Origin: Bacteroidaceae bacterium
GTDB lineage: Bacteria; Bacteroidota; Bacteroidia; Bacteroidales; Bacteroidaceae
NCBI GenBank assembly: GCA_017428785.1
Contig: JAFRQD010000063.1
Span: 17,071 to 81,070, forward strand
Direction: 5' to 3'
Length of the DNA stretch: 64,000 nt
Numbering within the stretch: position 1 is the first letter of the stretch; every line of letters begins with the position of its first letter. The notes beneath the pieces were generated by a model. The model made no database searches, was not told where the DNA came from, and saw only the letters and a program-made list of their open reading frames with translations. This document shows positions 1 through 64,000 of the stretch, piece after piece. The translations under genes and the position numbers were made by a program.

Positions 1-2
1 TC

Positions 3-59
3 ATCACAGACGCACCAAAGCAAGCCAAGCAATACATCAATGTAGAGGTGAAAAGTTGA
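3..59 (+). CDS. 3' end of an upstream gene (partial, low confidence)
   Basis: Frame 3 is open from the window edge and stops at a TGA at 57-59, giving a tail ending INVEVKS. The stop lies where the intergenic CCTTTTCA/TGAAAAGG repeat begins, as at several other gene ends in this window. Only 18 codons are visible, so neither reality nor identity can be established. A methylmalonyl-CoA mutase subunit would be a natural neighbour of the MeaB gene that follows, but nothing in these residues shows that. Confidence 0.3.
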   Translation: MTDAPKQAKQYINVEVKS

Positions 60-143
60 AAAATTAAAAAATAAACCCTTAACCTTTTCACCTTTTAATC
101 TTTTCAATTTTACACCTTTTCACCTTTTCAATTATTCACCTTT
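60..143. repeat. Tandem CACCTTTT / CAATTTTT-type short repeat
   Basis: The gap before meaB consists almost wholly of short imperfect units related to CACCTTTT and CAATCTTTT. The same unit type recurs in frame inside ispH (1717-1762) and, as GAAAAGTTGAAAAG, before the SIMPL gene (50482-50508). Confidence 0.7.
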
Positions 144-146
144 TAT

Positions 147-1244
147 ATGGAGCATCCTGAAAACAATCCCGAATATGCAGGCTTGACTGTGAACAGTGGC
201 GTAGGTCCTGTCTCTATCGTCAATCCTCACCTCAACCGCAATCGTTTTGCACGTCGTCGCCTCACCGCTTCCGACTATGTGGAGGGCATCCTAAAAGGAA
301 ACATCACGATTCTGGGACAAGCCGTCACTCTCGTCGAAAGCACGATTCCCGAGCATCAAGTCATTGCTCAGGAAGTCATCGAGAAGTGCTTGCCGCACTC
401 CGGCAACAGCGTGCGCATCGGCATAAGCGGCGTGCCTGGTGCAGGCAAGAGCACAAGTATCGACGAGTTCGGCATTCATGTCCTCAAGCAGTACGGCGGA
501 CGACTTGCAGTTCTCGCAATCGACCCCAGTAGTGAGCGCTCGAAAGGCAGCATCCTTGGCGACAAGACACGCATGGAGAAGCTTGCCGTTCATCCTGACT
601 CTTTCATTCGTCCCAGCCCGTCGGCAGGCAGTCTGGGCGGTGTGGCCCGCAAGACTCGCGAGACCATCATCCTTTGTGAAGCGGCAGGTTTCGACAAGAT
701 TTTCGTAGAGACAGTTGGCGTGGGACAGAGCGAGACGGCTTGCCACTCGATGGTCGATTTCTTCCTCCTCATCCAGCTTGCAGGCACAGGCGACGAGCTG
801 CAAGGCATCAAGCGAGGCATCATGGAGATGGCCGACGGCATCATCATCAACAAATGCGACGGAAACAACGTGGACAAGTGCCAGCTTGCAGCCACTCATT
901 TCCGCAATGCACTCCAGCTCTTCCCGCTTCCTGAGAGCGGCTGGGCTCCGCAAGTGCTGACCTATAGCGGCTTCTACGGTTACGGCATCAAGGAGGTCTG
1001 GGATATGGTTTACAGCTATCTCGACTTCGTGAAGAAGAGCGGCTACTTCGATTATCGTCGTGCTGAACAGGCTAAGTACTGGATGTATGAAAGCATCAAC
1101 GAGCAGCTGATGGGCAATTTCTACCACAATCCCACTATTGCCGACATGCTCCAGGCTGCCGAACAAGGCGTGCTTAATGGGGAAAGAACCTCATTTGTGG
1201 CTGCCAAGCAGTTGCTCGACTCTTACTTTGCACTCCTCCATTAG
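147..1244 (+). CDS. meaB: Methylmalonyl-CoA mutase-associated GTPase MeaB (ArgK family)
   Basis: G3E-family GTPase that chaperones adenosylcobalamin-dependent methylmalonyl-CoA mutase, protecting it and gating cofactor loading; cytoplasmic. The 365-residue product has a Walker A motif GVPGAGKS at about residues 95-102, the family motif IDPSS near 126, ETVGVGQSE near 188-196 and the base-specificity motif NKCD at 236-239. Length fits the family. The start is the first ATG after a repeat-filled gap. The 3' end overlaps the convergent ispH gene by 54 bases. The mutase genes would be expected just upstream, outside the window. Identification is firm. Confidence 0.95.
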   Translation: MEHPENNPEYAGLTVNSGVGPVSIVNPHLNRNRFARRRLTASDYVEGILKGNITILGQAVTLVESTIPEHQVIAQEVIEKCLPHSGNSVRIGISGVPGAGKSTSIDEFGIHVLKQYGGRLAVLAIDPSSERSKGSILGDKTRMEKLAVHPDSFIRPSPSAGSLGGVARKTRETIILCEAAGFDKIFVETVGVGQSETACHSMVDFFLLIQLAGTGDELQGIKRGIMEMADGIIINKCDGNNVDKCQLAATHFRNALQLFPLPESGWAPQVLTYSGFYGYGIKEVWDMVYSYLDFVKKSGYFDYRRAEQAKYWMYESINEQLMGNFYHNPTIADMLQAAEQGVLNGERTSFVAAKQLLDSYFALLH

Positions 1245-2084
1245 CCATTTGGGAGTGCTTGTGGCACCACAAATGCCTATCGATTCACATCCTTGCAGCC
1301 AGCGGACATCAATCTCGCTGGCTGTGTCTATCATATAAGAACGGGAATTGGCCTCAAGGCATTTATTGAAAAGGACGCGGCCATTACTGCTCTTCTTGCC
1401 GCAAACGAAGAGGACGGCATCATGTCTTAGAGCAAAGTTGCGGATGTTCGGCATACGGTTTGCCACCTGTCGGCAAATGGTGTCGTAGTAGGTAAAGGTG
1501 GCATTCGGACTGATGTGTTGCTCAACGTACTCCACAATCTTGCGGAACTCATCGAGCGGCATAGTCGTCTGGGAGTAGAGACAGATGTCGCGATTGAAGT
1601 CGAGCTTTCCGGCATCGTCGGCCGATTCGATAATGATGGCGGTTTCCTCTGTCTGTCCCACCAGGCCTATCACCTCGGCATGACCTTTCTTGCCGAAGAT
1701 GACTATCTGCTTCTCTTTAACCTTTTCACCATTTGACCCTTTCACCTTTTCATCGTATTCCTTCTTGATGCGTTCCTGCAAGTGCAAGACCACAGGACAC
1801 GTGGCGTCAATCAGGTTGATGGAATGCTCTCGGGCCAAAGCATAAGTGGAAGGCGGTTCGCCATGAGCTCGGAGCAGAACCTTTGCATCATGAATGTCGC
1901 GCATCTGTTCGTGGTTGATGGTCACAAGCCCCAACTGCTGAAGGCGGTCGCACTCTTTTCCATTATGGACAATATCGCCCAGGCAATAAAGCAGTTCCTC
2001 CTTTGCGAGTTCCTCCTCTGCCTTACCGATGGCTCGTGTCACACCATGACAGAAACCGCTGCTGCTATCAATTTCGATGGTCAT
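1191..2084 (-). CDS. ispH: 4-hydroxy-3-methylbut-2-enyl diphosphate reductase (LytB)
   Basis: Last enzyme of the MEP isoprenoid pathway: reduces HMBPP to IPP and DMAPP with a [4Fe-4S] cluster. The cluster cysteines lie in GFCHG (C12), DATCP and DTICR; SSNG and STPKWL are also present. I start at the ATG at 2084, giving MTIEIDSSSGFCHG at the usual N-terminus; an upstream in-frame ATG at 2147 would add 21 unrelated residues inside the preceding gene. Oddity: after the RIKKEYD segment there is an extra stretch, EKVKGSNGEKVKEK, encoded by a copy of the intergenic CCTTTTCA repeat (1717-1762). The start overlaps the acyltransferase gene by 17 bases, suggesting co-transcription. Confidence 0.93.
   Translation of the reverse strand: MTIEIDSSSGFCHGVTRAIGKAEEELAKEELLYCLGDIVHNGKECDRLQQLGLVTINHEQMRDIHDAKVLLRAHGEPPSTYALAREHSINLIDATCPVVLHLQERIKKEYDEKVKGSNGEKVKEKQIVIFGKKGHAEVIGLVGQTEETAIIIESADDAGKLDFNRDICLYSQTTMPLDEFRKIVEYVEQHISPNATFTYYDTICRQVANRMPNIRNFALRHDAVLFVCGKKSSNGRVLFNKCLEANSRSYMIDTASEIDVRWLQGCESIGICGATSTPKWLMEECKVRVEQLLGSHK
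1717..1762 (-). repeat. Intergenic-type repeat inserted in frame in ispH
   Basis: CCTTTTCACC-type units identical in kind to those at 60-143, here read in frame without stops and lengthening a surface loop of IspH. Confidence 0.75.
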
Positions 2085-3737: not shown

Positions 3738-3913
3738 TGTCACGCATTAAATTGCAAAACGGAGCATGTTTTCGGGCCGATTTCCTTGTAGAGCGTTTGG
3801 CAACTCCACAGGGGACGATTGCAAACTTCGCGTGTTAAGTTGGCAAACTTCACGTGTTAAGTTGACAAAGTTGACGTGTGGCGTTTGGAATCTTCTCATG
3901 TGGAGTTCCCGTT
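3738..3913 (+). repeat. 22-base tandem array 1 (about eight units)
   Basis: Units start at 3738, 3760, 3782, 3804, 3826, 3848, 3870 and 3892, an exact 22-base step. The best preserved read CTTCACGTGTTAAGTT followed by GACAAA. The core is CACGTG or CGTGTTAAGTT, with a CAAA near the unit end. The outer units are diverged. The array ends 128 bases before the -7 box of the LRR gene. Confidence 0.8.
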
Positions 3914-4090: not shown

Positions 4091-7063
4091 ATGAAAAAAC
4101 TATTACTCCTCAACTTGCTCCTTGCAATGATCTTTGGAGCAACAAGTCTTAGGGCTGCTGAAGGCGATGTGGTCTTTAACTCCACCAACTTCCCTGATGA
4201 TGCGTTCCGTCAGTATCTTTATCAAGAGTTTTACTTCTATGAGGGCGAAACCCTTACTCAAAAGGACCTTGACAAAGTTAGGTCACTTTATCTAACAGAT
4301 AAGGGCATTTCTTCGCTCAAGGGTGTTGAATATTTCAAACAACTACGATGGTTGTATTGCAGCTACAATAACCTTACGACTTTAGATCTTTCCCAGAATC
4401 ATGCAATAGTAACTCTGAATTGTAGTTACAACAAGCTAAAAAACTTGATTTTTTCAAGTACCCCACATGACATAGGAGAAGAAAAACATCTAAATTGCTC
4501 CCACAATAACCTTACTTCGCTTGAAGTTCCAATCTACGCAGATTATGGAACCATTTTGAATTGTAGCCATAACAACTTAACTTCACTAAAGATTTTTCAA
4601 ACACGCGAGAATAATGCTGATTATTTAGCAGTAAATTGTTCCTACAATAATCTTTCGTCGTTGAATTTGGGAAACGCCCTAAATCCTTATGTGTGGAGTG
4701 TAGAATGTAGTCATAATAACATTACCCAGTTGGAAGATTTGTGGCGCTGGACTTTCCTTAGGAAGTTGGACTGCTCTTACAACAAACTGAATGGCAACCT
4801 TCCTTTGGCTGCAGGCCTTACCTCGCTCGAGGACTTGAATTGTGGCGGTAACGACTTCACATATATTAATCTGCAATACCTGACCGGCCTTAAGCGCTTT
4901 ACGATGACCGACAGCAAGGTCACATCGCTCGACCTTTCCAATAACACCGAACTGCATTACCTGAAGCTGAACTACAGTAAATTCGACGAGTTAAGGCTCT
5001 TGAAAAATACAGAGCTTGATACGGTTATCGTCAACCATTGCGACCTAAACAAGTTGCTTTTCACGAGCGCGGCAACAAACTTGATGCATCTGGAATGCAA
5101 ATACAACTCGCTGACGTCGCTTTGGCTATACGACCAGCCCAACATGAAGTATCTCGATTGTTCACACAACAAACTGACGACATTGAATTATAACTCAATG
5201 CCCCAATTGGAAACTTTCGATTGCTCCTACAATGAGTTTGACTTCCTCGACATCGCGAAACTCACAAACTTGAAACAGTTCTATGCTCATCACAACAAAC
5301 TCATATCGATTGCAGGCGTTGAATATGTAGATGGGCCGACTTGGATAAACTATGATGCCAATGCCTTCACTCCACAGGAACCGACGACCCGTCGCTTCGA
5401 GCGTATTGACTATAATGGTGGCAAAGCTTGGGCACTTTATCTTGGCACAAGTGATGCAAGCCGCATCTTGAACTACAAGACGGACGATGTTTCAGCAACT
5501 CCTGTTCTCTATAAAAAGTACTTAATCATTTCCGAAGACTTGAGCCAAATCCCCAGTAAAGTGGAATACGACTTCAAGCCTTTTGCCACAAAGAATGCCT
5601 TCAATGTGGTCGTGAACTATGATGTGAAGAACTACAACATCTTGATTGACGGCAAGCAGATGACTTCGCTCAACTTCTTTGACATTCCCGGACTGGTGAG
5701 CGGCAAGGCATACTTTGAAGACAAGCCCGAAGGCCTCGGCTGGGCAGGTGAGCCGACACTTGTCCTTGATAATGCAGCCCTTGAGTGGGACGGGACTAAT
5801 TATGGCATCTATAATAATAACAACTATTATTTCACCATCAAAGTCATTGGTGACTGCTCTATAACAAATAAGGAACTTGCCGCGCTTGAACTTGACGCCG
5901 TTACCAGTACAACGATAGAAGGCGGAGGAACACTAAACATTACCTCTGAAGAATATTGTGCTATTAGAACTTGGGCTGTTACTAAGCTAAATATACAAGA
6001 CAATACAAAGGTAATAGCACGAAGCCTTAACTATAATTATGGTTATTACGACGAAGATGGGGCCAATTTAGAAATCAAAGATGGAGCTATGTTCGCAGTT
6101 AAAAGTAAGTATGCACCGCTCTCTCTCGACAGGAACTTACCCGTCTTTGGCGAAGGCATCGACATCCGTTATCCAGAAGGTGCTTATTTTGGCGATTACA
6201 ATAATCTTTATTATGCTGACGGCACAAAAGTACAAAACGATTGGGCTATCATCGGACCTAGCAGTCTTAAAGAAAGCCTCGGCTTCAGTATCAACGGCAA
6301 GATAATGACCCGAATGGATGCGCATGATTTGCTGGATGATGTGCCGGGAGTGGTAAGCGGAGAAGCCTATATCGAAGTAGATAAATACCACATACCGACA
6401 CTCGTACTTGATAATGCCACATTGGAGTTGGAAGCAATTTTGGGCATGAATTATTACGGCGCGACCCACTGGAATTATATCAAAGTCTTGGGCGACTGTA
6501 CGATTAAGAATCCCAATGGCGTTGTTTTTGTGCTGAATCCTAACACACTAACCTCCATAGAAGGCGGAGGAACCCTCAACGTCTTTTCCGAAACACTTGC
6601 TCCCATCGGGTCGAATAATTCTCGTCTTAAGATAGAAGACAACACGACTATAATAGCAGAGAGCAAAAAAGCGGATGTTGCCCTTTGGTGTCAAGACGGT
6701 GCAAAATTAGAAATCACGAATGGAGGCGCGATTGCCGCACACAGCAAGTCCAATCCAATTCTCGTGTTAGATAGCGAGTTCATCTTGGGCGAAGGTACCG
6801 CTTTGCGCTATCCTTTAGGGGCTTATATAGGAAGCGATAACATTATCTATAATGCTGACGACACAATAGTGGAAGACGATTGGATTGTCATCGGTCCGGA
6901 TAATGAGAAGACAAAGGATTTGATAACAGGAGTCCACGAGATTGACAACAGTCAACAGACAACAGACAACGGATTTATCTATAATATAGCCGGTCAGCAA
7001 ATGTCAAATGGCAAATTGCCTCGTGGCATCTACATCCAGAACGGCAAGAAAGTTTTAAGATAA
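4091..7063 (+). CDS. Secreted leucine-rich-repeat protein with type IX-like C-terminal tail
   Basis: 990 residues from the ATG at 4091, which gives a signal peptide (MKKLLLLNLLLAMIFGATSLRAA). An in-frame ATG at 3995 would place the promoter inside the gene. Residues about 50-410 are LRR units of about 21 residues built on LxCSxNxLTSLxL. Then follow two copies of a roughly 200-residue module (DGKQMTSLNFFDIPGLVSG...; second copy NGKIMTRMDAHDLLDDVPG...), each containing TLVLDNA, EGGGTLN and a LEI(K/T)(D/N)GA motif that suggests beta-helix rungs. The tail YNIAGQQMSNGKLPRGIYI plus KKVLR resembles type IX sorting tails. The paralogue at 51307-53658 has one module copy. The tail is joined by residues DNSQQTTDNG encoded by a heptanucleotide repeat. 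Role unknown; surface exposure or adhesion is inference. Confidence 0.85.
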   Translation: MKKLLLLNLLLAMIFGATSLRAAEGDVVFNSTNFPDDAFRQYLYQEFYFYEGETLTQKDLDKVRSLYLTDKGISSLKGVEYFKQLRWLYCSYNNLTTLDLSQNHAIVTLNCSYNKLKNLIFSSTPHDIGEEKHLNCSHNNLTSLEVPIYADYGTILNCSHNNLTSLKIFQTRENNADYLAVNCSYNNLSSLNLGNALNPYVWSVECSHNNITQLEDLWRWTFLRKLDCSYNKLNGNLPLAAGLTSLEDLNCGGNDFTYINLQYLTGLKRFTMTDSKVTSLDLSNNTELHYLKLNYSKFDELRLLKNTELDTVIVNHCDLNKLLFTSAATNLMHLECKYNSLTSLWLYDQPNMKYLDCSHNKLTTLNYNSMPQLETFDCSYNEFDFLDIAKLTNLKQFYAHHNKLISIAGVEYVDGPTWINYDANAFTPQEPTTRRFERIDYNGGKAWALYLGTSDASRILNYKTDDVSATPVLYKKYLIISEDLSQIPSKVEYDFKPFATKNAFNVVVNYDVKNYNILIDGKQMTSLNFFDIPGLVSGKAYFEDKPEGLGWAGEPTLVLDNAALEWDGTNYGIYNNNNYYFTIKVIGDCSITNKELAALELDAVTSTTIEGGGTLNITSEEYCAIRTWAVTKLNIQDNTKVIARSLNYNYGYYDEDGANLEIKDGAMFAVKSKYAPLSLDRNLPVFGEGIDIRYPEGAYFGDYNNLYYADGTKVQNDWAIIGPSSLKESLGFSINGKIMTRMDAHDLLDDVPGVVSGEAYIEVDKYHIPTLVLDNATLELEAILGMNYYGATHWNYIKVLGDCTIKNPNGVVFVLNPNTLTSIEGGGTLNVFSETLAPIGSNNSRLKIEDNTTIIAESKKADVALWCQDGAKLEITNGGAIAAHSKSNPILVLDSEFILGEGTALRYPLGAYIGSDNIIYNADDTIVEDDWIVIGPDNEKTKDLITGVHEIDNSQQTTDNGFIYNIAGQQMSNGKLPRGIYIQNGKKVLR
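6944..6972 (+). repeat. CAACAGA heptanucleotide repeat inside the LRR gene
   Basis: About four 7-base units (CAACAGT, CAACAGA, CAACAGA, CAACGGA) in frame, encoding the linker between the last beta-helix-like module and the C-terminal sorting tail. Confidence 0.75.
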
Positions 7064-7862: not shown

Positions 7863-8869
7863 TGTTCTTTCTGGAAATTATAAGCTAACGTAAAGGCGAG
7901 GGTCGGAGCGCTGACATGATACTTGGCGTATGCAAGGCCGAACTTCAGCCGCTTCAGGTTGACGCCACCGCCGAAGGAAAGACCTGCGGCATGCGAAGAG
8001 CCTGCGGCAGTCATCTCGTAACCGCGACGGAAGTTGTAACCCATGCCAACATAGAACTTAGTATTGATGAGCCACTCTGCACCAAGCACGAAATGGTTGA
8101 TGATTATGCTGCCTGTCTTGAGTTTGCTGCCGGTAGTGAAGTAGTCGTCCCTTGTCCATCGCGTCATATCAACCATCGTGACAGAGATGCGGATAGGAGC
8201 ATGGCCGAGCGACTTTGTAAAGCCCATCTCGAGGTCGGCTGGCAAATGGTCATGTTGGTTGCCAAAGCTCTTGACCTGTCCACCGAGGTTACGGGCTGCA
8301 AGCGAGAACGAGAAGTCGGTCTCCTCGTTGTAGTAGTTCAGTCCGAGGTCGGCAGCCAAGGCGCAAGAAGTGAACGCGCCATAATGCGAATAGATGAACT
8401 TGGCCGTAACACCGCCCGCCCAGCGTTCGCTGAGAAGGTGGCTGTACTGACCGCCGATGCAAAGGTCAAGAGGCTTAAACGAACCGACCTCCTCGCCCGA
8501 AAGCAGTGTCTCTTTCGTGGAACCGTATCCCACGAACTGCGCATTCACGCCCCAGTTCCCTCGCGCTCCAACTTGTTGAGAATAAGCGGCGGCACCAGTA
8601 TTACAACCTTGCATATAAGTCATAAACGAGAAACCAACCGTCTTGTCACTGACGCCTGTAAGCAAGGCCGGATTCTGTATGGCAAGAGATATGTCGTCCT
8701 CAATGAGGGAGATATTCTTTCCGCCAAGCGCCGTAGAATGCGACGAGACAGGTAAGTTCAGGAAATTGAATACGCTACCGCTCTCCTGTGCCGCCGTACG
8801 AAGCAAGAAGCAAGGGGCAAGGAGCATGAGCAGGAGAAAGATATACTGTATCTTAGTCATTTTATTCAT
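7859..8869 (-). CDS. porQ: Type IX secretion system protein PorQ
   Basis: Outer-membrane beta-barrel-like protein; PorQ belongs to the PorU-PorV-PorQ-PorZ attachment complex of the type IX secretion system. 336 residues with an N-terminal signal peptide ([21 protein letters not shown]). Then comes the PorQ/PorV-type opening ([36 protein letters not shown]) and alternating beta-strand sequence to the end. Being coupled to cmk fits the arrangement I recall in other Bacteroidales. Its presence supports reading the C-terminal tails of the LRR and BspA-like proteins as type IX sorting signals. A minus-strand -7 box at 8880-8887 is so close that the second ATG (8860, MTKIQYIF) may be the true start. 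Confidence 0.85.
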
Positions 8870-12763: not shown

Positions 12764-12836
12764 CACGACATAAGTCAACTAAGAACTCCTGATTCTTAAC
12801 TCTTAACTCTTAATTCTTAATTAATAGAGTAGTACT

Positions 12837-19906: not shown

Positions 19907-21010
19907 ATGAATCTGTCGCCTTCTTTAAAAAGATACACTTCCGAGCAACTCTCTGCCCGTGAGGCACAAAGGCAGGCCGAATTCATCGCTTGGGGGCCTA
20001 TCGTGTTCCAAGCCACAAGGCTCATGCTGAAGTTCGGCATCCTCGAGATGCTGCGAGACAGTGAGAACGGACTGACGGAAGCGGAGGTGGTAGAGAAGAC
20101 TGGGTTCTCGAGGTATGCCGTGAAGTGTCTGCTCGAAGCATCGCTCAGCATCGGCACCGTACTCATCGACACAGACTCCGACCGCTACTCCATCTCCAAG
20201 ACGGGCTGGTTCCTGCTGAACGACCCTGCAACAAAGGTGAACATTGACTTCAACCACGATGTGAACTATCAGGGATGGTTCCATCTGGAGGAAGCACTCA
20301 AGGAAGGAAAACCCGCAGGACTGAAGACTCTTGGCGACTGGCCTACACTCTACGAAGGTCTTTCCTCTTTCCCCGAACAGGCAAAAGAGAGTTGGCTCAA
20401 CTTCGACCACTTCTACAGCGACTCCTCTTTCCCCGAGGCTCTTCAGATTGTCTTTGCCGAACACTTTGTCCGCTCGCTCTACGATGTGGGCGGCAACACA
20501 GGCAAGTGGGCCTTGCAATGCGTAAGGTATGATGAGGAAGTGGAAGTGACCATCCTCGACCTTCCTCAGCAGATAAAGATGATGCAGGAGAACATCAAGG
20601 GCAAGCCAGGAGCGGAACGCATCAAAGGATTCGGCATCGACCTGCTCGACAAAGAGACCGGCTTCCCCAAGAGAGAGGGAGGCCTCGATGCCATCTGGAT
20701 GTCGCAGTTCCTGGATTGTTTCAGCGAAGAGGAAATAGTAAGCATCCTGACTCGTGCGAAGGAAGCAATGGACAAGGACACGCGCCTCTTCATCATGGAA
20801 CTCTTCTGGGATCGTCAACGCTTTGAGCCCGCTGCATTCTGCCTCACGATGACCAGCCTTTACTTCACCGCAATGGCAAACGGAAACAGCAAGATGTACC
20901 ACTCCGACGACATGAGAAGGCTCATCGCTCAGGCAGGACTGGAAATAGAAAGCATCCGCGACGGGCTGGGGCAAGGGCACAGCATTATGGTGTGCAAGAT
21001 TAAAAATTGA
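19907..21010 (+). CDS. SAM-dependent O-methyltransferase
   Basis: 367 residues of the acetylserotonin/hydroxyindole O-methyltransferase type. The N-terminal winged-helix dimerisation domain spans about 20-110 (LKFGILEMLRDSENGLTEAEVVEKTGFS). The Rossmann domain has motif I SLYDVGGNTGKWA and TILDLPQQ. In aryl-polyene and flexirubin clusters such enzymes methylate the aryl head group; here that is inference. The last residues KIKN and the stop come from the start of an ATTGAAA repeat. Confidence 0.88.
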   Translation: MNLSPSLKRYTSEQLSAREAQRQAEFIAWGPIVFQATRLMLKFGILEMLRDSENGLTEAEVVEKTGFSRYAVKCLLEASLSIGTVLIDTDSDRYSISKTGWFLLNDPATKVNIDFNHDVNYQGWFHLEEALKEGKPAGLKTLGDWPTLYEGLSSFPEQAKESWLNFDHFYSDSSFPEALQIVFAEHFVRSLYDVGGNTGKWALQCVRYDEEVEVTILDLPQQIKMMQENIKGKPGAERIKGFGIDLLDKETGFPKREGGLDAIWMSQFLDCFSEEEIVSILTRAKEAMDKDTRLFIMELFWDRQRFEPAAFCLTMTSLYFTAMANGNSKMYHSDDMRRLIAQAGLEIESIRDGLGQGHSIMVCKIKN

Positions 21011-21034
21011 AAATTGAAAATTAAAAATTGAAAG
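21004..21034. repeat. ATTGAAA heptanucleotide repeat
   Basis: About four 7-base units, supplying the stop codon of the methyltransferase gene and filling the gap to the ACP gene. Confidence 0.7.
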
Positions 21035-33965: not shown

Positions 33966-34030
33966 TTGAAAATTGAAAATTGAAAGGTTTTTGATTGAAT
34001 ATTGAAAATTGAAAATTGAAAGGTTGAAAG
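33964..34030. repeat. ATTGAAA heptanucleotide repeat
   Basis: About eight 7-base units (GAAAATTGAAAATTGAAAGG and variants) filling the gap between the hydrolase and acyltransferase genes. Confidence 0.8.
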
Positions 34031-41783: not shown

Positions 41784-41895
41784 AATCTTTAGTTAAGAGT
41801 TAAGAGTTAAGAGTTTATAGTTTATCTCTTCACTCATCACTAATCTCTAATCAAAATAAAACGAGACTCAGCGCAAAGCACCTTAATCTCGTTCG

Positions 41896-42283: not shown

Positions 42284-45200
42284 TCACTTTATTACAACCT
42301 TCTTGCCTTTCCTGATATAGATACCGGCCTTTGTGGGGCGTGCGCCGAACTTGCGGCCGCTCAGGTCGTACCAGGCATGGTCAATGGTCAATGGCGAATG
42401 GCCAATGGTTCCTATGCCGTCGGGATCGGGAGCGATGCCCGAGCCGAACCAATAGTTCCAGGGATAGATGTCATATAACTCCTCGCAGCCATAAGGCACA
42501 TAGAGCGTTGCACCGCTCATCTCGGTACCTGCCGGCACACCGATGCTCTCGAAGGCGAAGTTGTTCTCATTCGTCAGGAAACCGTCTTGGTCGAGCAGAA
42601 CGGGCGGATAGTCGCAGTCGATATAAACGTCAGCCACATTCTCGCAATAGCCAAAGGCGTTGGCGCCGATGGTGCGGATGCTCATGGGCAGCGTGATGCT
42701 CTGCAGGCTCGACAGACTGCTGAAGGCATCGGCAGCAATGCCCGTCACTACGTAGCCGTCGGCAATGAACGGCACCTTCACCACGCTTACGTCGCTTGCA
42801 ACAGCCTGGCTTGTATCGCCGTTCGGGTCAGCCTTTACCTCGCAGGTCTTCTTCTGGAGGTCGAGCACACGATAGGTGATGTCGATGCCGTCCTCGTTCC
42901 TTGCCGTGAAGTAGATGTCGGTCTTTGCCGTCGATTCGGGGAAGATGATGGTGGCAGCCTTGAAGAGGCGGATGTTCTCGCCTGCAGTGTACGCCATCTC
43001 GTCGTAGTCCGACTGCTTGAAGGTGTAGAGGATGTTGTCGGCAGGGCTTACGCCGTCGAATATGTTGATGTTGCCGTCATCGTCGATATAGAAGAGCCTC
43101 TTGTGAGCCTTGTTGTAATAGACATCGCCATAGATGTCGTCCCAGAATCCGCCGTAGGGCTCCCACACGCGGCCTACCACTTCGTTCTCGTATGTGAGTT
43201 GCCCCACTTGTATCAAGGCCTGGATGCACATGTACTCTTCGTCGTTACTATAGTAGTCGTTGAAGTATGCACCGGGCTTCACCTTGTAGGTCAGCGTGTT
43301 CGGGTTGTCCTTGTCGATGATGGTGAACCAGAGGTTCCAGGGAGCCACGTTCCATGCATCCTTTGTACCGCCGGGCACGAGCAGGATGGGATGCGGGCTA
43401 TAGCCAGGTTCCCAGTAGGTATTGATGGCATTGGCGTCGGTGATGGGCGGTTCTTGTCCAAGCACTGTCAGGCGGTGCAAGTCTATCCACGCATCGAAGG
43501 CATTCTCTGCGATGAACTTCACGCTGGCAGGCAGGGTGAAGTCGCTGATGTGCATGCCGTTGGTGCTGGCGAAGGCTTTCACGCCGATGCTCTCGAGAGT
43601 CTCGGGCAGGATGAAGTTCTTGAAGTTCGTGCAAGCATAGAACGAGTTGTCGCCAATGCCCGTCACGGTGTAGGTCGAGCCATTGTACTGCACGGTCGAT
43701 GGGATGGTTAGCTTGTCGTACTGCGTGTAGTAGTTCCTCTCCACGGCGCTGCCAACTGTCTCGTTGACATATGTCTCGCAAGTCTTAGCCGCTTCGTCGG
43801 TTACGCGGAACCATATCTCGAGTCCCTCGACGCTTGTGACATGGAAGATGCCTGCGGGCAAGCGGCTCTCGAGGTCGGCCACGATGTTGGGGAACTTGCT
43901 CCATGTCTTGCTTGCCTGGAAGCGTGCCAGCACGCCGGGCGACGTCACGACGTGCAGCGTGGCATTGTTCCTTTCAATGGCTTCCCAGTCGAAGGACTTG
44001 CTGTAAGCCACGGGGCAGCTCTCGGCATAGCAATAGACGTCCTGCAGTCCGCTGTAGTTCAGCGAGCCTTCGGCCACAGAAGTGATGTGTGAGCCAAGCT
44101 CCACGCTCTTCACGCCAACACTGTGCTCGGGGTTGTGCTCGCCGACCATGTAGGCAGGCGTATGGTTTACGCGTTCGCTGATGACGACATGTTTGATGAA
44201 CGGCAGCCAGGAAACCAGCACGTCGTGCCACTTCATGTTAGAGCCGTCCACATTCACCGAATATGCTTTGCCATCGAAGTCGAGCGTGAGCGTGCCGTCA
44301 GAGTCGATGAACCATGTGCCGTCCTCGCCGACAGCGCCGCCCGTGGGCAACAGGATATCTTCATACTCTGTATCGGTCTCGATGGTCATATCTTTCCAGA
44401 CATTTGCCTTGCGGTACTGAACGGCCATGTCGGCAGGCACAAAGAGATGGATGTTCTTCAGGGTGCGGCCATAGAATGCCTGTGCAGGATATTCTGTTCC
44501 GCTTATCACACGCTTGCCCCACGGCAAGGCGGGAGGTGTCGGTGTGGCACAATAGATGGTGTCGATTTTTCCGCAGCCTCGGAAGGCATTGGCATCGATG
44601 GAGTCGAGGTTCTCGCCCAATTCGACATATGTCAGGTCGAAGCAGTTGGAGAAGATGTCCTTGGGCAGATACCTGCCCGAGAACTTCACGCCCTTCAGCT
44701 TGTAGCAGCTGCTGAAGCAGTTCGTTGCCTCCTCGAGATTAGCCTCGGACAGGTTGATGGACTCGAGCTTGTCGCAATAGAAGAAGGCTTGGCTCTTTAT
44801 CTCGCAAGGCTGACCGAGCGTCACTATCAGCAGGTTCTTGCAGTTGCTGAAGGCGCCGCGGCCTATGTGCTTCACATTGGGCATGTCGATGATGTTCAAG
44901 GCGGTACGAACGAAGGTGAACTCGCCGATGGTATCGACGTTCTCTAAGTTGATGCTCCTCAGATTGGGGCAGTCGCCGAACGAGCCGTCGAGTGTCTTGA
45001 TGGACGGACAGAGGCTGACGCTCTCCAGGTTGGGGAAGTTGGAGAAGCCGCCCTCAAGACGCTTTATGTTGCCTGTGAACTCGACGCGTCTGGTGCGATT
45101 GACGATAGAGTTCGGGTCGCTCTTGCGTCCGAAGCCGAGCTTCACGGGGTTGCTTTCTTCCCAGCCTTTGCCGGGTCCCTTGTCGGCAGCCACAAGCATT

Positions 45201-51306: not shown

Positions 51307-53658
51307 CTATTTCTTAATTATCTTTTTGCCGTCTTTGATGTAAATGCCACGAGGCAATTTACCATTTACGATTTGCTGACCGGCAAGGTTATAGATAAAT
51401 CCGTTGTCTGTTGTCCGTTGTCCGTTGTCAATCTCGTCCACGCCATCTATCAAGTCATGTGTTGCCTGCGTGTCGGGGCCGATGACAACCCAGTCGTTCT
51501 TAACTTCTGTGCCGTCGGCATAATAAAGATAATTGTAAGTGCCAGAAAAATAAGCACCTTCAGGATAGCGTATGTCGATGCCTTCGCCAAAGACGGGTTT
51601 GTCCTTGTCGAGATAGAGCGGCTCATACTTACTGTTAACTGCGAACACAGCTCCGTCCTTTATCTCAAGTTTTGCGACATCTCCCTCGTAATAGCCTCTG
51701 CCATCTGTGCTCCGCCCTATTATCTTAGTATTGTCCTGAATGGTCAGTTCCGCAAGGACAAAGCTTTGAATACAAGTATTTTTAGAAAATATGTTGAGTG
51801 TTCCTCCGCCTTCTACCGTTGTACGCGTAACGGCGTCAAGTTCAATTCCGACACCGTTCTTGCTTGTGATAGAGCAGTTGCCAATGACTTTGATGGTGAA
51901 ATAGTAGTTGTTATTATTGTAGATGCCATAAGCAAAAGTTTTCTCGTCACACTCGAGCGTGGCATTGTCGAGGACAAGTGTCGGCTCGCCTGCCCAGCCG
52001 AGGTCTTCGGGCTTGTCTTCAAAGTATGCCTTGCCGCTCACCAGTCCGGGAATGTCAAAGAAGTTGAGCGACGTCATCTTCTGGCCGTCAACAAAGATGT
52101 TGTAGTCCTTCACGTCATAGTTCACGACCACATGGAAGGCATTCTTTGTGGCATAGGGCTTGAAGTCGTATTCCACTTTCTGCGGGATTTGACTCAGGTT
52201 GTCGGAAACAATCAAATACTTGTTGCTGATAACAGGACTTGCCGAAACGCCGTCCTTCTTGAAGTTCAGGATACGGCTGGCATCACTTATGCCGAGGTAA
52301 AGAGCCCATGCTTCGCCGCCATTATATGAGACACGTTCGAAGCGGCGTGTCGTCGGTTCCTGTGGCGTGAAGGCATCGGCATCATAGTTTTCCCAAGTCG
52401 GTCCATCTGCTACTTCAACGCCTTCAATCGATATGAGCCTGTTGTGATGAGCATAGAACCATTTCAGACTTTTGCAACTCGTAATGTCGAGGGATGGCAA
52501 CTGATTGTTTGAGCAATCAAGGTACAATAGTTCCGGCATATTGCTTAGCGACAATGCTCCGATGTTGTTGTTGCTGCAATCCAGATGCTTCATTTTGTTG
52601 ATGCCATCTGAAAGTGTCAACACATCGAGGCTGCAATTCTTGACGATAAGCGTATCCATCTCTTTATTGTTGTTAAATATCCTTAGGCGGCCCAAAGGTG
52701 TGCCCTCGCAATTCATGTAGTGCAGGTCGGGACAGAAAGACTGGTCGAGCGATGTGACCTTACTGTTCTTCATCGTCAAACGCTGCAGTTTCGTGTTGTA
52801 GGAGATATCGAGCGACGTGAAGCTATTTCCGCTACAATCCAAGTCCTCGAGATTAGGAAGATTGGTTACGTCCAGCGATGGAATGTCGTTATTGGCACAG
52901 TACAGATTTATTATGTATGTGTTATTTTTAAGATATAAAAACGTAAGTTGATTATCGGAACAATCTACATAAACAAGCCTACTATTTATTCCCACATTAA
53001 GGTTTTTCAGTTTATTGTTCGCACATTGTAATTTTTTGAGTTTGGGGCAATATGACAAGTTCAGCGTTGAAAGATTGTTGTTTGAACAATATACGGTATG
53101 AATTTCAGGACAATTAGTCAAGTCCAGCGTTGAAAGATTATTGTTTGAACAATTCAAGCCAGTGAGATCATGGCAACTGCTCAAGTCCAGCGTTGAGATA
53201 CTGTTGTTTTGACAACTAAAGCCATACAATAGGGGTTGCTGACCAAGTACTAATGATGTTAATTTGTTGTCGGAACAATTCATAATTCCCATACGTAACA
53301 TACTAATATCTAAACTGGTAAGATTATTCCCAGCACAATATAATTCATTTATATTTTTATTATTGGACAAGTCTAATACTGAAATGTGATTATAATTACA
53401 AAATAAAAGTGAAATACTCGTAAAGTATTCTATACCTTTTAGTGAATAAATATCCAAACGATCCATATTAAGCGACTTAACTTTATCGCAATCGGCTTTC
53501 TTAAGTGTTTGGCCTTCTCGGAAATCAAATCTATCACGAAGATATTTCCGGAACGCGGGGTCAGGAAAGTTTGTAGAGTTAAAGACAACATCTGCTTTAA
53601 CGGACTGTACTCCAAAGAGCATTGCAAGGAGCAAGTTAAGAAGTAGAATCTTTTTCAT
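51307..53658 (-). CDS. Secreted leucine-rich-repeat protein (paralogue of the 4 kb gene)
   Basis: 783 residues: signal peptide MKKILLLNLLLAMLFGVQSVKA, then LxCSxNxLxxLDL-type LRR units to about residue 420. One copy of the roughly 200-residue DGQKMTSLNFFDIPGLVSG / EGGGTLN / LEIKDGA module follows, then the tail YNLAGQQIVNGKLPRGIYI plus KKIIKK. The middle and C-terminus are near-copies of 4091-7063 (shared PTWxNYDAxAFTPQEPTTRR). The linker DNGQRTTDNG before the tail is repeat-encoded. Surface localisation by type IX secretion is inferred. Confidence 0.85.
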   Translation of the reverse strand: MKKILLLNLLLAMLFGVQSVKADVVFNSTNFPDPAFRKYLRDRFDFREGQTLKKADCDKVKSLNMDRLDIYSLKGIEYFTSISLLFCNYNHISVLDLSNNKNINELYCAGNNLTSLDISMLRMGIMNCSDNKLTSLVLGQQPLLYGFSCQNNSISTLDLSSCHDLTGLNCSNNNLSTLDLTNCPEIHTVYCSNNNLSTLNLSYCPKLKKLQCANNKLKNLNVGINSRLVYVDCSDNQLTFLYLKNNTYIINLYCANNDIPSLDVTNLPNLEDLDCSGNSFTSLDISYNTKLQRLTMKNSKVTSLDQSFCPDLHYMNCEGTPLGRLRIFNNNKEMDTLIVKNCSLDVLTLSDGINKMKHLDCSNNNIGALSLSNMPELLYLDCSNNQLPSLDITSCKSLKWFYAHHNRLISIEGVEVADGPTWENYDADAFTPQEPTTRRFERVSYNGGEAWALYLGISDASRILNFKKDGVSASPVISNKYLIVSDNLSQIPQKVEYDFKPYATKNAFHVVVNYDVKDYNIFVDGQKMTSLNFFDIPGLVSGKAYFEDKPEDLGWAGEPTLVLDNATLECDEKTFAYGIYNNNNYYFTIKVIGNCSITSKNGVGIELDAVTRTTVEGGGTLNIFSKNTCIQSFVLAELTIQDNTKIIGRSTDGRGYYEGDVAKLEIKDGAVFAVNSKYEPLYLDKDKPVFGEGIDIRYPEGAYFSGTYNYLYYADGTEVKNDWVVIGPDTQATHDLIDGVDEIDNGQRTTDNGFIYNLAGQQIVNGKLPRGIYIKDGKKIIKK
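51401..51431 (-). repeat. GTTGTC heptanucleotide repeat inside the second LRR gene
   Basis: CCGTTGTCTGTTGTCCGTTG then TCCGTTGTC, in frame, joining the body of the protein to its sorting tail, exactly as in the paralogue. Confidence 0.75.
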
Positions 53659-54816: not shown

Positions 54817-54948
54817 TAACACGTTAAGTTGGCAAACATGGCACATGATGTCGGCAAAATCCACACGTGGATTTGATGAAATCCACACGTGAACTTCGGC
54901 AAATCCACACGTGAACTTTGACAACATCACACGAGATGTTTTTCAAGC
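54817..54948 (+). repeat. 22-base tandem array 4 (six units)
   Basis: Units at 54817, 54839, 54861, 54883, 54905 and 54927. The consensus is CCACACGTGAACTTCGGCAA followed by AT. It ends 95 bases before the -7 box of the trp operon. Confidence 0.88.
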
Positions 54949-56416: not shown

Positions 56417-56520
56417 AAAAGGAGAAAGAAGAATTAACAGCTAAGGATTAAGGACGAAAAGGATATGGGGATGTAACAATTCTTAATTCTTCTTTCTTAA
56501 TTCTTAATTATGAAAAAGCC
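56417..56520. repeat. TTCTTAA heptanucleotide repeats in the trpB-trpE gap
   Basis: AAGAATTAACAGCTAAGGAT on the left and TTCTTAATTCTTCTTTCTTA on the right form a loose inverted repeat of short units. Confidence 0.55.
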
Positions 56521-57960: not shown

Positions 57961-57978
57961 ATGATTAAATGGTAAATG
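57914..57978 (+). repeat. C-rich palindrome plus GGTAAAT repeat at the trpE end
   Basis: CCTCCCCTAACCCCTCCAAA plus GGAGGGG, then AAATGGTAAATGGTAAATGA and TTAAATGGTAAATG; codes for the TrpE tail and fills the gap to trpG. Confidence 0.75.
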
Positions 57979-58549: not shown

Positions 58550-58604
58550 CCCCCTTTAGGGGGAACAAAAAATGTTCAATGTTCAATATTCAATGTTCAA
58601 TGAT
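58541..58604 (+). repeat. C-rich palindrome plus TTCAATG heptanucleotide repeat
   Basis: ACCCCCTAACCCCCTTTAGG plus GGG, then AATGTTCAATGTTCAATATT and CAATGTTCAATG in the trpG-trpD gap. Confidence 0.7.
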
Positions 58605-60487: not shown

Positions 60488-61165
60488 ATGATAATCAAAG
60501 TTTGTGGAATGCGAGATGCCGAGAACATTCGGGAAGTGGAACGTTTGGGCATCGACATGATGGGCTTTATCTGTTGGGAGCGCTCGCCGAGATATGTGCG
60601 CGAAGTGCCTGCCTATCTGCCTAAGTGTCCGCGTGTTGGCGTCTTCGTCAACCAGTCTCTTGATGAGATACAGAAGCGGATGGAAGCCTTCGACTTCAGT
60701 TATATTCAACTTCACGGCAGCGAATCGCCTGAGTTTTGCAAGGAGGTTCGAGAGAAGACGGGGTGCAAGGTCATCAAGGCAATTAGCATAAACCGCCCTA
60801 CACACCTACAGACCTCCTCTAGCTCCCCCTTAAAGGGGGAGGAATCAGGCAAGGAAGCCTCCCCTTTAAGGGGAGGTTTGGTAGGGTCTTTTGAGGGCTG
60901 CGCGAATCTTCTTCTCTTCGACACCAAGTGCTCGACTATGGGTGGAAGCGGCAAGCAGTTCAATTGGGACATCCTTTCCGACTACCGAGGAGACTTACCC
61001 TTTCTGCTTTCGGGAGGCATCGGACCTGAGGATGCCGAGCGACTCAGGCAGTTTCACCACCCCAAATGCCTCGGCTTCGACATCAACTCGCGCTTCGAAA
61101 TCGAGCCGGGCATCAAGGATACAGAAAAGATAAAACAGTTCATAACAGCCATCCGAGAGGACTAG
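60488..61165 (+). CDS. trpF: Phosphoribosylanthranilate isomerase with repeat insertion
   Basis: TIM-barrel isomerase, 225 residues. IIKVCGMRDAENIREVE, FICWERSPRYV, GVFVNQSLDEI, YIQLHGSESPEFC, LFDTKC with SGGIGPEDAERL and LGFDINSRFEIEPGIKD identify it. Between KAISINRPTH and FEGCANLLLFDTKC sits an insertion of about 27-30 residues (SSSSPLKGEESGKEASPLRG...) encoded by two C-rich palindromes (60810-60889). It extends a barrel loop and leaves all catalytic residues intact. The stop codon lies at the edge of an ACTAGTAAA repeat. Confidence 0.93.
   Translation: MIIKVCGMRDAENIREVERLGIDMMGFICWERSPRYVREVPAYLPKCPRVGVFVNQSLDEIQKRMEAFDFSYIQLHGSESPEFCKEVREKTGCKVIKAISINRPTHLQTSSSSPLKGEESGKEASPLRGGLVGSFEGCANLLLFDTKCSTMGGSGKQFNWDILSDYRGDLPFLLSGGIGPEDAERLRQFHHPKCLGFDINSRFEIEPGIKDTEKIKQFITAIRED
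60810..60889 (+). repeat. C-rich inverted-repeat element inside trpF
   Basis: Left part AGACCTCCTCTAGCTCCCCC... and right part ...GGTAGGGTCT are imperfect inverted copies, each with its own palindrome (CTCCCCCTTAAAGGGGGAG; CCTCCCCTTTAAGGGGAGG). Read in frame without stops. Confidence 0.8.
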
Positions 61166-61200: not shown

Positions 61201-61226
61201 GAACACAAAACAGACAGAAATACAAG

Positions 61227-62006: not shown

Positions 62007-62008
62007 TC

Positions 62009-62070
62009 AACTAAGCGTGGCAAATTCGCAAATTAGAAACGGCTAATTGCTCAACTAACCACGCTTAGTT
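62009..62070. terminator. 12-base inverted repeat between trpA and the GH35 gene
   Basis: AACTAAGCGTGG (62009-62020) and CCACGCTTAGTT (62059-62070), perfect, 38-base loop, no strong T-run. It sits where both convergent transcripts should end, but may instead be another mobile palindrome. Confidence 0.45.
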
Positions 62071-62072
62071 TC

Positions 62073-64000
62073 TCAATAGACAAAGACTCGCAAGTTCTTG
62101 ATGCTGCCCGGTGCGCCTTGCTCGGCACGCGGCAGGTACTCGATGCCTTTGATTAGCTTCTCGGAACCGAGGTCGATGACCAGCAGATGCGGAAGCGTAG
62201 CTGCCTTTTCTGTTTGCCAATAAGTGCTTTCCTGAAGGTCATAGACTTTGTCGCCGAGATGGTTGCCGTTCTCGTCCTCGCTGTCAGCATACTTCACTGT
62301 CCACGGCTCGCGGCTCAGGCGTTTGCCATCGTTGCCGAGAGCATAAAGCTCTGCTATGGCCGTCACATCGCCTTCTTTTTGTGTGCTCTGCGCTTCAATG
62401 GCAAGATAACGTCCGCGACTATTCCTCTTGAAATTGACCGTCTGCCAGCCGTTGCCTGCCTTCAGCTCGCCCTCGAACGCAGGAGATTTCGAATTGAGGT
62501 CGGGCTTGTCGCCTGGGTTGTTGTGCTTGTTGTTCTTTTCCAATTGCAGCTTGTTCAGCTCGGGTTCTGCCTGTCCCCATACGACACGCTCTGTAGGACC
62601 TGCAATGTCGAGGACGATCACCTCGTTCTTGCCCTTCTTGAGCCAGCAGCCAGGCACATAAAGCGTCTGCTGCGGCCCAATCGACCAGATGCGCCCCATG
62701 GCATGGCCGTTCACCCAAACCTGTCCCTTACCCCAATTTTCGAAGTTGAGGAACGTGTCGCCCACCTTCTTCAGGTCAAAGTAGCCGCGATAGTAACCGC
62801 GTCCGAAGATGAGGTCTTCGCTGTCCTTGGCATAACGCATGGTGCGGCCGAGGCGCATCATGCTGATGGACTCGCGAGTGTTAGGCTTCTCCTTCTGCCA
62901 CTCAAATGCCCTGACAGCTACCTCGTAGTCATCAGGGATGCGCATGTTCTCCCACATCGTCGGGGTGTATACAATCTCCGTTCCGTCGATGCCGAAATGT
63001 GACTTCACGTTGACCGTGATAGTAGGTTTGCTGACTAATCCTTTAAAGTCCTTGATGGCTCGACCAAAGTTGATGCGCCCCATGCCTTCGACGAGGATTT
63101 GCAGTTCCTGCCCCCGACTGACAGGTGGCAAGGAGAGCGACTTCTCGTTCTTCACGCGGTCAATCTTGCCGATGTACTTGCCGTCGATAAAGACCTGAGC
63201 AAAGTCGTGGGCGTCAATCGTGAGCGTGGCAGTCCAATCCGCTTCTTCTGGCTTCGCAATCTCAGGCAGACGGGTACTGTAGAGCATAGCTCCCCATCCC
63301 ATGTCGAGTTCTTCAAATGTCAGGGGTGCGCCAACGGTACGGAGATCTTGATCATGATCAACATAGTACCTAAAGTCGAAACCATTGTAGAGCGGTGCGA
63401 ACTCCGTCAGCTCGAACTTTGGCACCGTAATGATAGGATTAGGAGCCTTGGGAACAGAAGGCATCTTCTTGCCGTCGTTATACTTCTCCATCATCTTGCG
63501 GAGTTCCCAGAACTTAGGCGTAGGCAAGCCCCATTCGTTGATGGGAGCGTCGTAGTCGTAGCTCGTCACATCGGGCGCAAAGCCTGGACTATTGGCACCT
63601 GCCCAATGGCCGAAAGAGGTGCCGCCGTGGGTCATGTAGAGCGAGAAGCTGATGCCTTTGCTGAGCATCTCGTCCATCCCTTCCACCATGTCCTTGGCGG
63701 GGCGCGTCTCGTGCTGAGCTCCCCACTTGTCGAACCATCCGCTCCAGAACTCGGAGCACATCTTCGGGGCATCGGGTCGCAGTTCACCGAGGCGGCGGAA
63801 CTGCTGGTCGATGTTGGCGCCCGTACCGAAGTTCATCGTCCAAGTGAGGTCGTCGAGACCGTTCTTCTCGAAGTTGGAAGACCAGTCGCACTGGAATAAA
63901 GCCAACTCCTTACCGTAGATGCCACGCAAGCAGTCGCGAATCTCGCTGACATACGGCTTGTCCTCGCCATACGAGCCGTACTCGTTCTCCACCTGCATCA
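62073..64000 (-). CDS. Glycoside hydrolase family 35 beta-galactosidase (5' end outside window)
   Basis: At least 641 residues, running off the right edge on its N-terminal side. Catalytic motifs: acid/base Glu in QVENEYGSYG and nucleophile Glu in CSEFWSGWFDKWG, with MTHGGTSFGHWAGAN. Beta-sandwich domains follow (YRGYFDLKKVGDTFLNFENWGKGQVWVNG, IWSIGPQQTLYVPGCWL), then a discoidin/CBM32-like C-terminal domain (NSRGRYLAIEAQS, YWQTEKAATLPHLLVIDLGSEKLIKGIEYLPR). Probably a secreted or periplasmic beta-galactosidase acting on plant or host glycans. Confidence 0.92.
   Translation of the reverse strand, partial: MQVENEYGSYGEDKPYVSEIRDCLRGIYGKELALFQCDWSSNFEKNGLDDLTWTMNFGTGANIDQQFRRLGELRPDAPKMCSEFWSGWFDKWGAQHETRPAKDMVEGMDEMLSKGISFSLYMTHGGTSFGHWAGANSPGFAPDVTSYDYDAPINEWGLPTPKFWELRKMMEKYNDGKKMPSVPKAPNPIITVPKFELTEFAPLYNGFDFRYYVDHDQDLRTVGAPLTFEELDMGWGAMLYSTRLPEIAKPEEADWTATLTIDAHDFAQVFIDGKYIGKIDRVKNEKSLSLPPVSRGQELQILVEGMGRINFGRAIKDFKGLVSKPTITVNVKSHFGIDGTEIVYTPTMWENMRIPDDYEVAVRAFEWQKEKPNTRESISMMRLGRTMRYAKDSEDLIFGRGYYRGYFDLKKVGDTFLNFENWGKGQVWVNGHAMGRIWSIGPQQTLYVPGCWLKKGKNEVIVLDIAGPTERVVWGQAEPELNKLQLEKNNKHNNPGDKPDLNSKSPAFEGELKAGNGWQTVNFKRNSRGRYLAIEAQSTQKEGDVTAIAELYALGNDGKRLSREPWTVKYADSEDENGNHLGDKVYDLQESTYWQTEKAATLPHLLVIDLGSEKLIKGIEYLPRAEQGAPGSIKNLRVFVY

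Follow-up and report, generated by a model that had tools for sequence, protein, structure and literature searches.

Period 7 is dominant among the heptameric short tandemly repeated repetitive (STRR) sequences of cyanobacteria. Repeats of the same period are the subject of the present work, in which we analyzed a stretch of 64 kb (in the following simply 'the window') on contig C58 of a Bacteroidaceae metagenome assembly (G000; 2.98 Mb, 71 contigs, 84% complete). Here, arrays of mostly 7-base tandem units, palindromes that carry such arrays as arms, among them a family that we call R1, and C-rich palindromes lie in the gaps between genes and also in frame inside conserved enzyme genes.

Several described systems are close to this one. 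According to PMC2229807 and PMC10969869, Rickettsia palindromic elements (RPE) are palindromes of 105-146 bp, belonging to several families, which lie in frame in unrelated conserved enzyme genes as well as in gaps, and for one RPE-bearing enzyme both translation and activity were demonstrated. In these same texts it is in Rickettsia that in-frame palindromic inserts were taken furthest, and similar events shaping proteins elsewhere are called conceivable (PMC10969869). Protein-coding palindromes of Wolbachia appear in a reference title of PMC2229807, which also presents the enterobacterial ERIC/RU and the Neisseria Correia miniature inverted-repeat transposable elements (MITEs) as short mobile palindromes fused in frame within genes, bacterial MITEs being primarily intergenic. 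PMC4679880 reports TAACTGA heptamer direct repeats in Beggiatoaceae, Cyanobacteria and five Bacteroidetes including Paludibacter, patchily distributed and mostly in gaps, with some copies in reading frames, mainly near protein ends; it also recounts that period 7 is dominant among long simple sequence repeats (LSSR). Finally, PMC2996958 describes PARCEL as patchily distributed protein-coding repeats with dyad symmetry, which form 25-residue tandem domains in open reading frames without assigned function.

We consider it very probable that dispersed non-autonomous repeats, together with purifying selection, explain the arrays, the palindromes and the in-frame copies of the window. In detail, several repeat families, namely arrays of a limited number of 7-base (sometimes 8-base) units, palindromes with such arms and C-rich palindromes, have been dispersed in a clade of gut Bacteroidaceae, landing in genes and gaps. 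Genic copies would be kept where they leave the reading frame open and free of stops and where the protein can tolerate the added peptide, as in a surface loop, a linker, a C-terminal tail or a signal peptide. Tolerant loops would be struck repeatedly, so that related species come to carry different repeats at the same codons. Regarding the movement itself, hairpin-mediated template switching and mobilisation in trans are guesses.

In the window, 23 runs of period 7 (score ≥10) were detected compared to a mean of 0.0 in ten order-2 Markov shuffles, the next periods being 14 (13 runs), 21 (9), 22 (8) and 8 (6). Array counts were then based on 461 kb of G000, window included, and on a wider set of 771 kb at a slightly lower threshold. 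The 461 kb hold 89 period-7 arrays (score ≥12) and one order-3 shuffle none; tandem 7-base arrays thus occur far above chance, as in the heptamer simple-sequence repeats of other bacteria. Most of these arrays are intergenic (51), 30 are coding (>90% inside a called gene) and 8 lie on borders; in the 771 kb, 154 arrays (53 coding, 88 intergenic, 13 on borders) fall into 48 unit classes. Loops, tails and signal peptides, where the inserts are found, are places in which low complexity is common, and ordinary low-complexity loops with a codon bias that mimics repeats could be suspected. However, period 7 is no codon period, and synonymous-codon shuffles, which keep the protein, refute this explanation with 1, 0, 0, 0 and 1 genic arrays in five rounds compared to the 30 observed (codon-order shuffles gave 0 in all five). 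Furthermore, some coding DNA units are also found in gaps, which holds for 6 of the 16 unit classes seen in genes and for 15 of the 37 coding arrays. Low complexity is therefore an extremely improbable cause.

The units form a restricted dictionary that is dispersed over the genome. Among 109 arrays, 37 unit classes were counted, compared to about 101 expected for heptamers drawn at random from intergenic DNA. Many of the units are present at more than one unlinked locus, and several are also found in related species. An inverted partner at a distance of at most 130 bases was detected for 27 of the 154 arrays compared to 5 in the control, i.e. the flanks of other arrays, and 12 of the 53 genic arrays have one; for direct partners the numbers were 26 and 15, respectively. 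These observations bear on local polymerase slippage, by which each array would arise in place from a chance heptamer, without dispersal, an origin that has been proposed for LSSR. Slippage fits the dominance of period 7, as in other long-repeat-rich bacterial genomes (work of Mrazek as told in PMC4679880), and also the shortness of the arrays and their varying unit number. Yet it does not make inverted partners, nor does it place the same few units, partly common to species, at unlinked loci or let palindromes with a conserved inner sequence recur in three species, as R1 does. As a sole cause slippage is disfavoured and in our view improbable, although it may expand or shrink existing arrays.

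Cis-seeding, i.e. the sharing of units between neighbours, was an idea derived from the ispH loci and was rejected: 132 pairs of arrays 150-3000 bases apart gave 0.136 observed compared to 0.140 expected (permutation p = 0.57). Units in genes have a higher G+C (0.44 vs 0.25), and comparisons of unit types are confounded by this difference. The second peak, period 22 (72 arrays in the 461 kb, 1 in a gene), is nearly all intergenic and thus likely a separate class; in the window, such 22-base-unit arrays with palindromic cores (CACGTG, CCGCGTGCGG) are located at 3821-3879, 17375-17452, 19008-19090 and 54857-54933. The central core GCTTTAGCTCGACG of the ketoacyl synthase gene KS2 was also tried as a family and dropped, with just 2 exact copies in 771 kb and one at the ispH locus L078.

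Coding arrays are biased against stops. By unit consensus, 45 of the 53 are stop-free in the sense frame, compared to 61 of 176 strand readings for the intergenic ones. As the unit is not divisible by three, all phases are read and the same circular peptide appears in three frames, so that an array without imperfections has either all three frames open or none. The orientation of the arrays may vary with their place in the protein: of those starting within the first 30 amino acids, 13 of 17 are oriented such that the more hydrophobic peptide is read, compared to 17 of 55 others (Fisher p = 0.0015, which is too small a value since orthologous sites were counted separately, and one record two times, so that the rows are not independent). 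Restricted to six-frame-open units, the counts are 3 of 4 N-terminal arrays compared to 8 of 39 (p = 0.045).

One family of the palindromes with heptamer arms is R1, [AGGAGCA]n-AGAGAATAC-N-CAATCCTCT-[TGCCCCT]n, which was defined from six copies in G000 that also served to build a covariance model (72 positions, 21 base pairs). Including outer arm units, copies measure by reading about 80-105 bases and are thus at or below the low end of RPE. In 41 genomes, the model matched 7 of the 25 of the genus and none of the 16 from other families (G000 39 matches, G005 8, G013 60, G014 4, G017 1, G020 79 and G021 2, counts in which a palindrome can appear on both strands). In a family sample of 151 genomes, matches at E ≤ 1e-6 were restricted to G000 and two genomes of another genus, G138 and G180, whose few R1-like copies could reflect horizontal transfer or independent use of similar arms. 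A phage as vehicle of R1 was also considered and rejected, one exact R1 inner pattern having 0 matches in the viral collection.

To describe R1 at the gene level, 59 copies were examined, 19 in G000 and the 20 best-scoring ones each in G013 and G020. In total, 50 of them lie >90% within a gene (15/19, 19/20 and 16/20, respectively); as 86% of the 771 kb is called coding, this share of 85% indicates no depletion in genes. Forty-five of the 50 are more than 30 amino acids away from both protein ends. Orientation is strongly biased, with 48 of the 50 genic copies in gene orientation (44 of 46 without four copies at sites common to species), and so is the codon phase (phases 2/0/1 in 34/12/2 of the 48 same-strand copies, 30/12/2 without the shared-site copies). 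Phase 1 would be open in 44 of the 48, yet it is used 2 times; R1 has a frame preference, and the peptide read in this frame is conserved. NCBIfam gave names to twenty host proteins, some of them below the curated cut-off and often with the match in two stretches: TsaD, FGAM synthase (PurL), MutL, HisH, shikimate dehydrogenase, LeuRS, LpxB, HisRS, an HMP-P kinase-like protein, PrmA, N-acetylornithine carbamoyltransferase, biotin ligase, PcrA/UvrD helicase, a peptidase, ArgRS, MiaB, RNase R, YbeY, SurE and the CCA-adding enzyme. The open reading frame of the hosts is conserved, and G000 has a single TsaD hit (E ≤ 1e-30) and a single HisRS hit (E ≤ 1e-60); as far as such indirect signs go, these host genes may be translated and active, presumably with their inserts. 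In HisH (L214, G000:C63), six tandem copies of the R1 5'-arm peptide (GARSKEQEN/GAWSKEQEN) precede the closing arm, and in the carbamoyltransferase gene L250 of G020 R1 is apparently nested in a C-rich insert.

In 47 of the 48 same-orientation genic copies of R1, the strand that is read is predicted to form the weaker of the two hairpins (mean -37 vs -50 kcal/mol). Together with the hydrophobic orientation of N-terminal arrays, this could be taken as a sign of domestication, the arrays being kept as useful linkers, signal-peptide cores or mRNA structures. Both patterns, however, are expected from selection against harmful orientations alone. Moreover, nine of the examined copies are non-genic by the >90% measure and 8 of these share the asymmetry, which therefore belongs to the element, with genic orientation following, and the two genic copies in opposite sense expose the stronger hairpin. 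We regard domestication as unlikely; the inserts are presumably near-neutral.

Mobilisation of the type known from repetitive extragenic palindromes (REP) and REP-associated tyrosine transposases (RAYT), in which a Y1 transposase moves the palindromes, would find support in one full-length Y1_Tnp hit in each of the R1-rich genomes G000 and G013. However, there was no such hit in G020, also R1-rich (62% complete), in G005 or G008, or in G138 and G180 (97-98% complete and with R1-like copies), and conversely G022 has a full-length Y1_Tnp where the R1 search found nothing; weak partial hits were seen in G003, G007, G010 and G017. On both sides of the Y1 genes of G000 and G013 there are palindromes of a different family, and the surrounding 9 kb and 7 kb hold no period-7 arrays (R1 was not searched there separately). 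In these incomplete genomes Y1_Tnp presence thus does not track R1, and we rejected it as the driver, this explanation being very unlikely. The flanking palindromes of the two Y1 genes (L323, L324), GCCCTGAAAGGGC and CCCAGGGC..GCCCTGGG, are perhaps a REP family of their own.

Orthologues were taken mainly from G005, G008 and G013, whose stretches (for G005 the middle part) are collinear with the window where covered. Over ten window sites and 26 orthologue comparisons, mean identity was 17% at the site compared to 78% in the rest of the gene. The proposal of the sequence-only reading that three 7-base units, i.e. 21 bases, keep the frame is not a general rule: the net length change was +7 amino acids (21 bases) in 7 comparisons, zero in 6 and +22 in 4, the remaining nine being +2, +2, -2, +3, +6, +6, +6, +8 and +11. 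At the LolA N-terminus, a TCTGTTG array in G000 stands against TTTACTG arrays of equal length in G005 and G008. In a neighbouring gene, near 6.0 kb of L070, L078, L082, L083, L086, L089 and L090, the N-terminus, by inspection a signal peptide, is coded by TCTGTTG-type or TTCAATG arrays depending on the species.

Different repeats recur at the same loops. In an alignment of 81 IspH sequences, 17 of the 24 close relatives have a segment of 25 residues around the loop before QIVIFGK, and so do 51 of the 57 distant ones. Of the six remaining distant segments, three have 24 residues and the others 23, 27 and 37, the longest of these (L146) without a repeat. Inserts are present in 7 of the 24 close relatives (G000 included), where the segment measures 29-63 residues, and at least four kinds can be told apart: the insert of G000 is an 8-base array, that of L081 an AGGGGCA array and that of L085 a hairpin with TCTTCAC arms, and C-rich elements occupy the site in L080, L088, L090 and L092. 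L081 is apparently the same record as G013, and L086 the same as G008. A loop of TsaD has identical length in 24 of 28 sequences, and the other four carry R1 (G000 and G013), a C-rich palindrome (G018) and a long mixed insert (G016). One loop of HisRS (29 sequences) holds R1 in G000 and G020 and heptamer arrays in G008 and G014. The placement of the IspH and HisRS inserts in loops rests on alignment to solved structures, where they fall on gaps of 3dnf and 6nhi, respectively. An artefact of metagenome binning and assembly would have in its favor the nature of the genomes and a G005 HisRS gene that is split over two contigs near the site. This is hardly credible as an explanation, since R1 occupies the same HisRS, HMP-P kinase-like and PrmA codons in G000 and G020 with diverged element sequence, and since different species carry different in-frame inserts.

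The repeats are concentrated in close relatives. Records matched by IspH were mostly metagenome genomes of Bacteroidaceae/Prevotellaceae, many of them with rumen or hindgut in their titles. Around ispH, 23 relatives with an IspH at least 80% identical (L070-L092, 80-88%) showed 25 arrays in 155 kb, at 13 of 23 loci, compared to 1 array in 376 kb, at 1 of 57 loci, in more distant relatives (L093-L149, 66-75%); the C-rich palindrome motif occurred 10 times and 0 times, respectively. In G000 this motif reaches 71 per Mb, with 21 of 41 merged loci coding. This contrast cannot be read as a genus border, as same-genus genomes have IspH identities of 65-89%; it is one between a close clade and the rest, and many of the distant relatives may belong to the same genus. 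Two distant members of the genus also contain arrays, G016 one and G017 two, in 40 kb of sequence from each. The pair L074/L076, 94% identical, differs by 111 bases; this stretch is located after a stop codon and before a start codon and contains a palindrome with heptamer arms. An insertion is our reading of this difference, given that the gap at this place is short in several relatives; the direction is not proven and a deletion is also possible.

Several points weigh against dispersed repeats filtered by selection. All genomes are metagenome assemblies and those of the genus are 61-92% complete, so that a second intact copy of a host gene may be missed, and gene calls came from a simple in-house caller. 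With inverted partners at merely 27 of 154 arrays, most arrays are not visibly palindrome arms, and as neighbouring arrays share no units beyond chance there is no sign of local copying. A stop appears in the sense-frame unit consensus of 8 of the 53 coding arrays. R1 had no match in the close relative G008, nor in other same-genus genomes of the 151-genome sample (E ≤ 1e-6), and the copies examined in G013 and G020 were picked by score. The insert in L078 is flanked by TTCATAG inside the array, which could be a unit rather than a target-site duplication; with empty sites too diverged, such a duplication is not established. Finally, loop length in LolA and the AMP ligase is mostly unchanged across orthologues, the heptamer-bearing HisRS segments of G008 and G014 (26 and 28 residues vs 23-33 elsewhere) show no clear lengthening, and these three sites look like replacement rather than insertion.

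A more far-reaching version of the same explanation is possible, although we would rather bet against it: genome-wide insertion in free-living Bacteroidales could be a steady source of protein segments, in which frame-blind heptamer-armed palindromes and arrays would enter genes, be accepted in the orientation that gives the weaker mRNA hairpin and a fitting peptide (a hydrophobic one for signal peptides and a hydrophilic one for loops or linkers) and take each other's place at particular loops of essential enzymes.

The features of the window are collected in Table 1. The sequence-only reading had described 7-base tandem blocks there, and these proved real by the array counts and placements given above, also against shuffled coding sequence. 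Its listed units were found again: CAACAGA/GGACAAC (genes of leucine-rich repeat (LRR) proteins, KS2), TGGTCAA (KS3, an LRR gene), AATCTTC (AMP ligase), TTCAATG (trpD start), GGTAAAT (MMPL gene, trpE end), and ATTGAAA and TTCTTAA (intergenic). The names that it gave to the genes are borne out by Pfam (LytB/IspH, ketoacyl synthases, LolA, AMP-binding, Chorismate_bind for trpE, PRAI for trpF, MMPL). Heptamers inside the genes that it listed were recovered in KS2, KS3, lolA, the MMPL gene and the AMP ligase gene; in ispH the unit has 8 bases (AAAAGGTG), and the inserts of trpF and, in one case, of KS3 are C-rich palindromes, as is a portion of the trpE tail. Many arrays do lie inside genes as it had stated, those at 20999-21033, 57945-57963 and 58571-58602 overlapping a gene end or start.

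Table 1. Repeat features of the window, with their state in orthologous genes where compared.
Feature	Position	Strand	Orthologues
8-base-unit array (AAAAGGTG), in frame in ispH (LytB)	1714..1752	-	+7 aa vs G008
CAACAGA array, in frame, linker ~31 aa before C-terminus of LRR protein	6946..6970	+	
Heptamer array coding N-terminal hydrophobic stretch of FadL/TodX-like protein (Pfam match below cut-off)	8800..8826	-	Differs in G008, G013
TCTTAAC array, intergenic	12794..12822	.	
ATTGAAA array giving last codons and stop of O-methyltransferase gene	20999..21033	+	
Two heptamer arrays (GGACAAC, AGTCAAC) flanking a spacer in KS2, after ketoacyl synthase domains	23286..23340	+	Other sequences in G005, G008, G013
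CAATGGT array in KS3	24461..24493	+	+7 aa vs G005, G008, G013
C-rich palindrome pair in KS3	24920..24992	+	+22 aa vs three orthologues; R1 at same loop in G020
AATGAAG array in KS3	25379..25409	+	C-rich palindrome in G005, GACAACA array in G008
TCTGTTG array coding hydrophobic core of LolA N-terminus (signal peptide by inspection)	27891..27921	+	
Double ATTGAAA array, intergenic	33965..34021	.	
GGTAAAT-type array in MMPL-family gene (35170-37614)	36411..36439	+	Peptide DNRQQTTDK at site in G005
TCAATCT array in AMP-binding ligase	38119..38144	+	AAATGGT-type array in G005, equal loop length
AGTTAAG array, then related units, intergenic	41791..41852	.	
CAATGGT-family array, linker before C-terminal tail of BspA-type LRR protein	42377..42408	-	
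GGACAAC array, linker before C-terminal tail of LRR protein	51403..51429	-	
AATTCTT array, intergenic	56478..56509	.	
C-rich palindrome and AAATGGT array lengthening trpE C-terminus by ~14 aa	57910..57963	+	Absent in G008
TTCAATG array across trpD start; true start may be further downstream	58571..58602	+	
C-rich palindrome pair within trpF	60812..60890	+	+22 aa vs G008

Some further observations concern these genes. Large proteins with a heptamer array in a linker about 30 amino acids before the C-terminus are found in the window (6946-6970, 42377-42408, 51403-51429) and on contigs C42 (13018-13050, 83584-83610) and C40 (11216-11247); the three in the window have LRR repeats, the tails mostly show NLAGQ-like motifs and the units differ among them. 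KS2 has a 12-amino acid insertion without clear repeat at window position 22835-22886, which is absent in G005, G008, G016 and G017 and shorter in G013.

As a whole, the sequence-only reading had proposed an ongoing process that spreads these blocks and tolerates coding landings. The spread is borne out by the small number of unit classes and by the concentration in close relatives, and tolerance by orthologues that lack the insert or carry others and by the heptamer-armed palindromes that keep the frame of many core enzymes. Its ongoing nature we infer from differences between species; the sole fairly close pair is the L074/L076 one described above. With its dozens of related genomes, this system of gut Bacteroidaceae can be compared, dated and tested. 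It raises the questions of which loops of essential enzymes admit foreign peptides and at what frequency, and of whether an insert can come to be of use, one loop struck by unrelated repeats across species being a natural insertion scan of essential proteins. For annotators, such peptides in these genomes would represent recent DNA and not conserved domains.

In comparison to the described systems, the arrays resemble the TAACTGA repeats in being tandem 7-base units, mostly in gaps and partly inside reading frames. They differ in that many units are in use, about a third of the arrays is genic, including in catalytic enzymes, some arrays are palindrome arms, and units vary by species at fixed sites; as for TAACTGA itself, its canonical class AACTGAT is not among the 48 found for the 154 arrays in 771 kb. 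With LSSR and STRR they share the dominance of period 7, whereas a shared dictionary and palindromic families are dispersed here. Unlike bacterial MITEs, the R1 copies examined are mainly genic. The likeness to PARCEL consists in patchy protein-coding repeats with dyad symmetry, the difference in that here single inserts enter core enzymes, and with REP/RAYT systems R1 shares that it is short, palindromic, non-autonomous and present in many copies, but no tracking transposase was found and R1 is mainly in genes. No paper in the open-licence full texts searched was recognised as describing such a system, or a mechanism for it, in Bacteroidales, in agreement with the sequence-only reading, except that heptamer repeats in Bacteroidetes are already in print. 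The parallel to RPE that it had drawn holds: R1 is a palindrome with terminal inverted arms, in frame in unrelated conserved genes, core enzymes among them, and in gaps. The host here is a gut Bacteroidaceae clade and that of RPE an obligate intracellular alphaproteobacterium; as the related records are Bacteroidaceae/Prevotellaceae, the family was not classed as RPE. Furthermore, the arms here are tandem heptamers, and one and the same loop can hold repeats of several unrelated types, depending on the species. Altogether, the system works like the protein-coding palindromes of Rickettsia and shares its period of 7 with the heptamer repeats of other bacteria.

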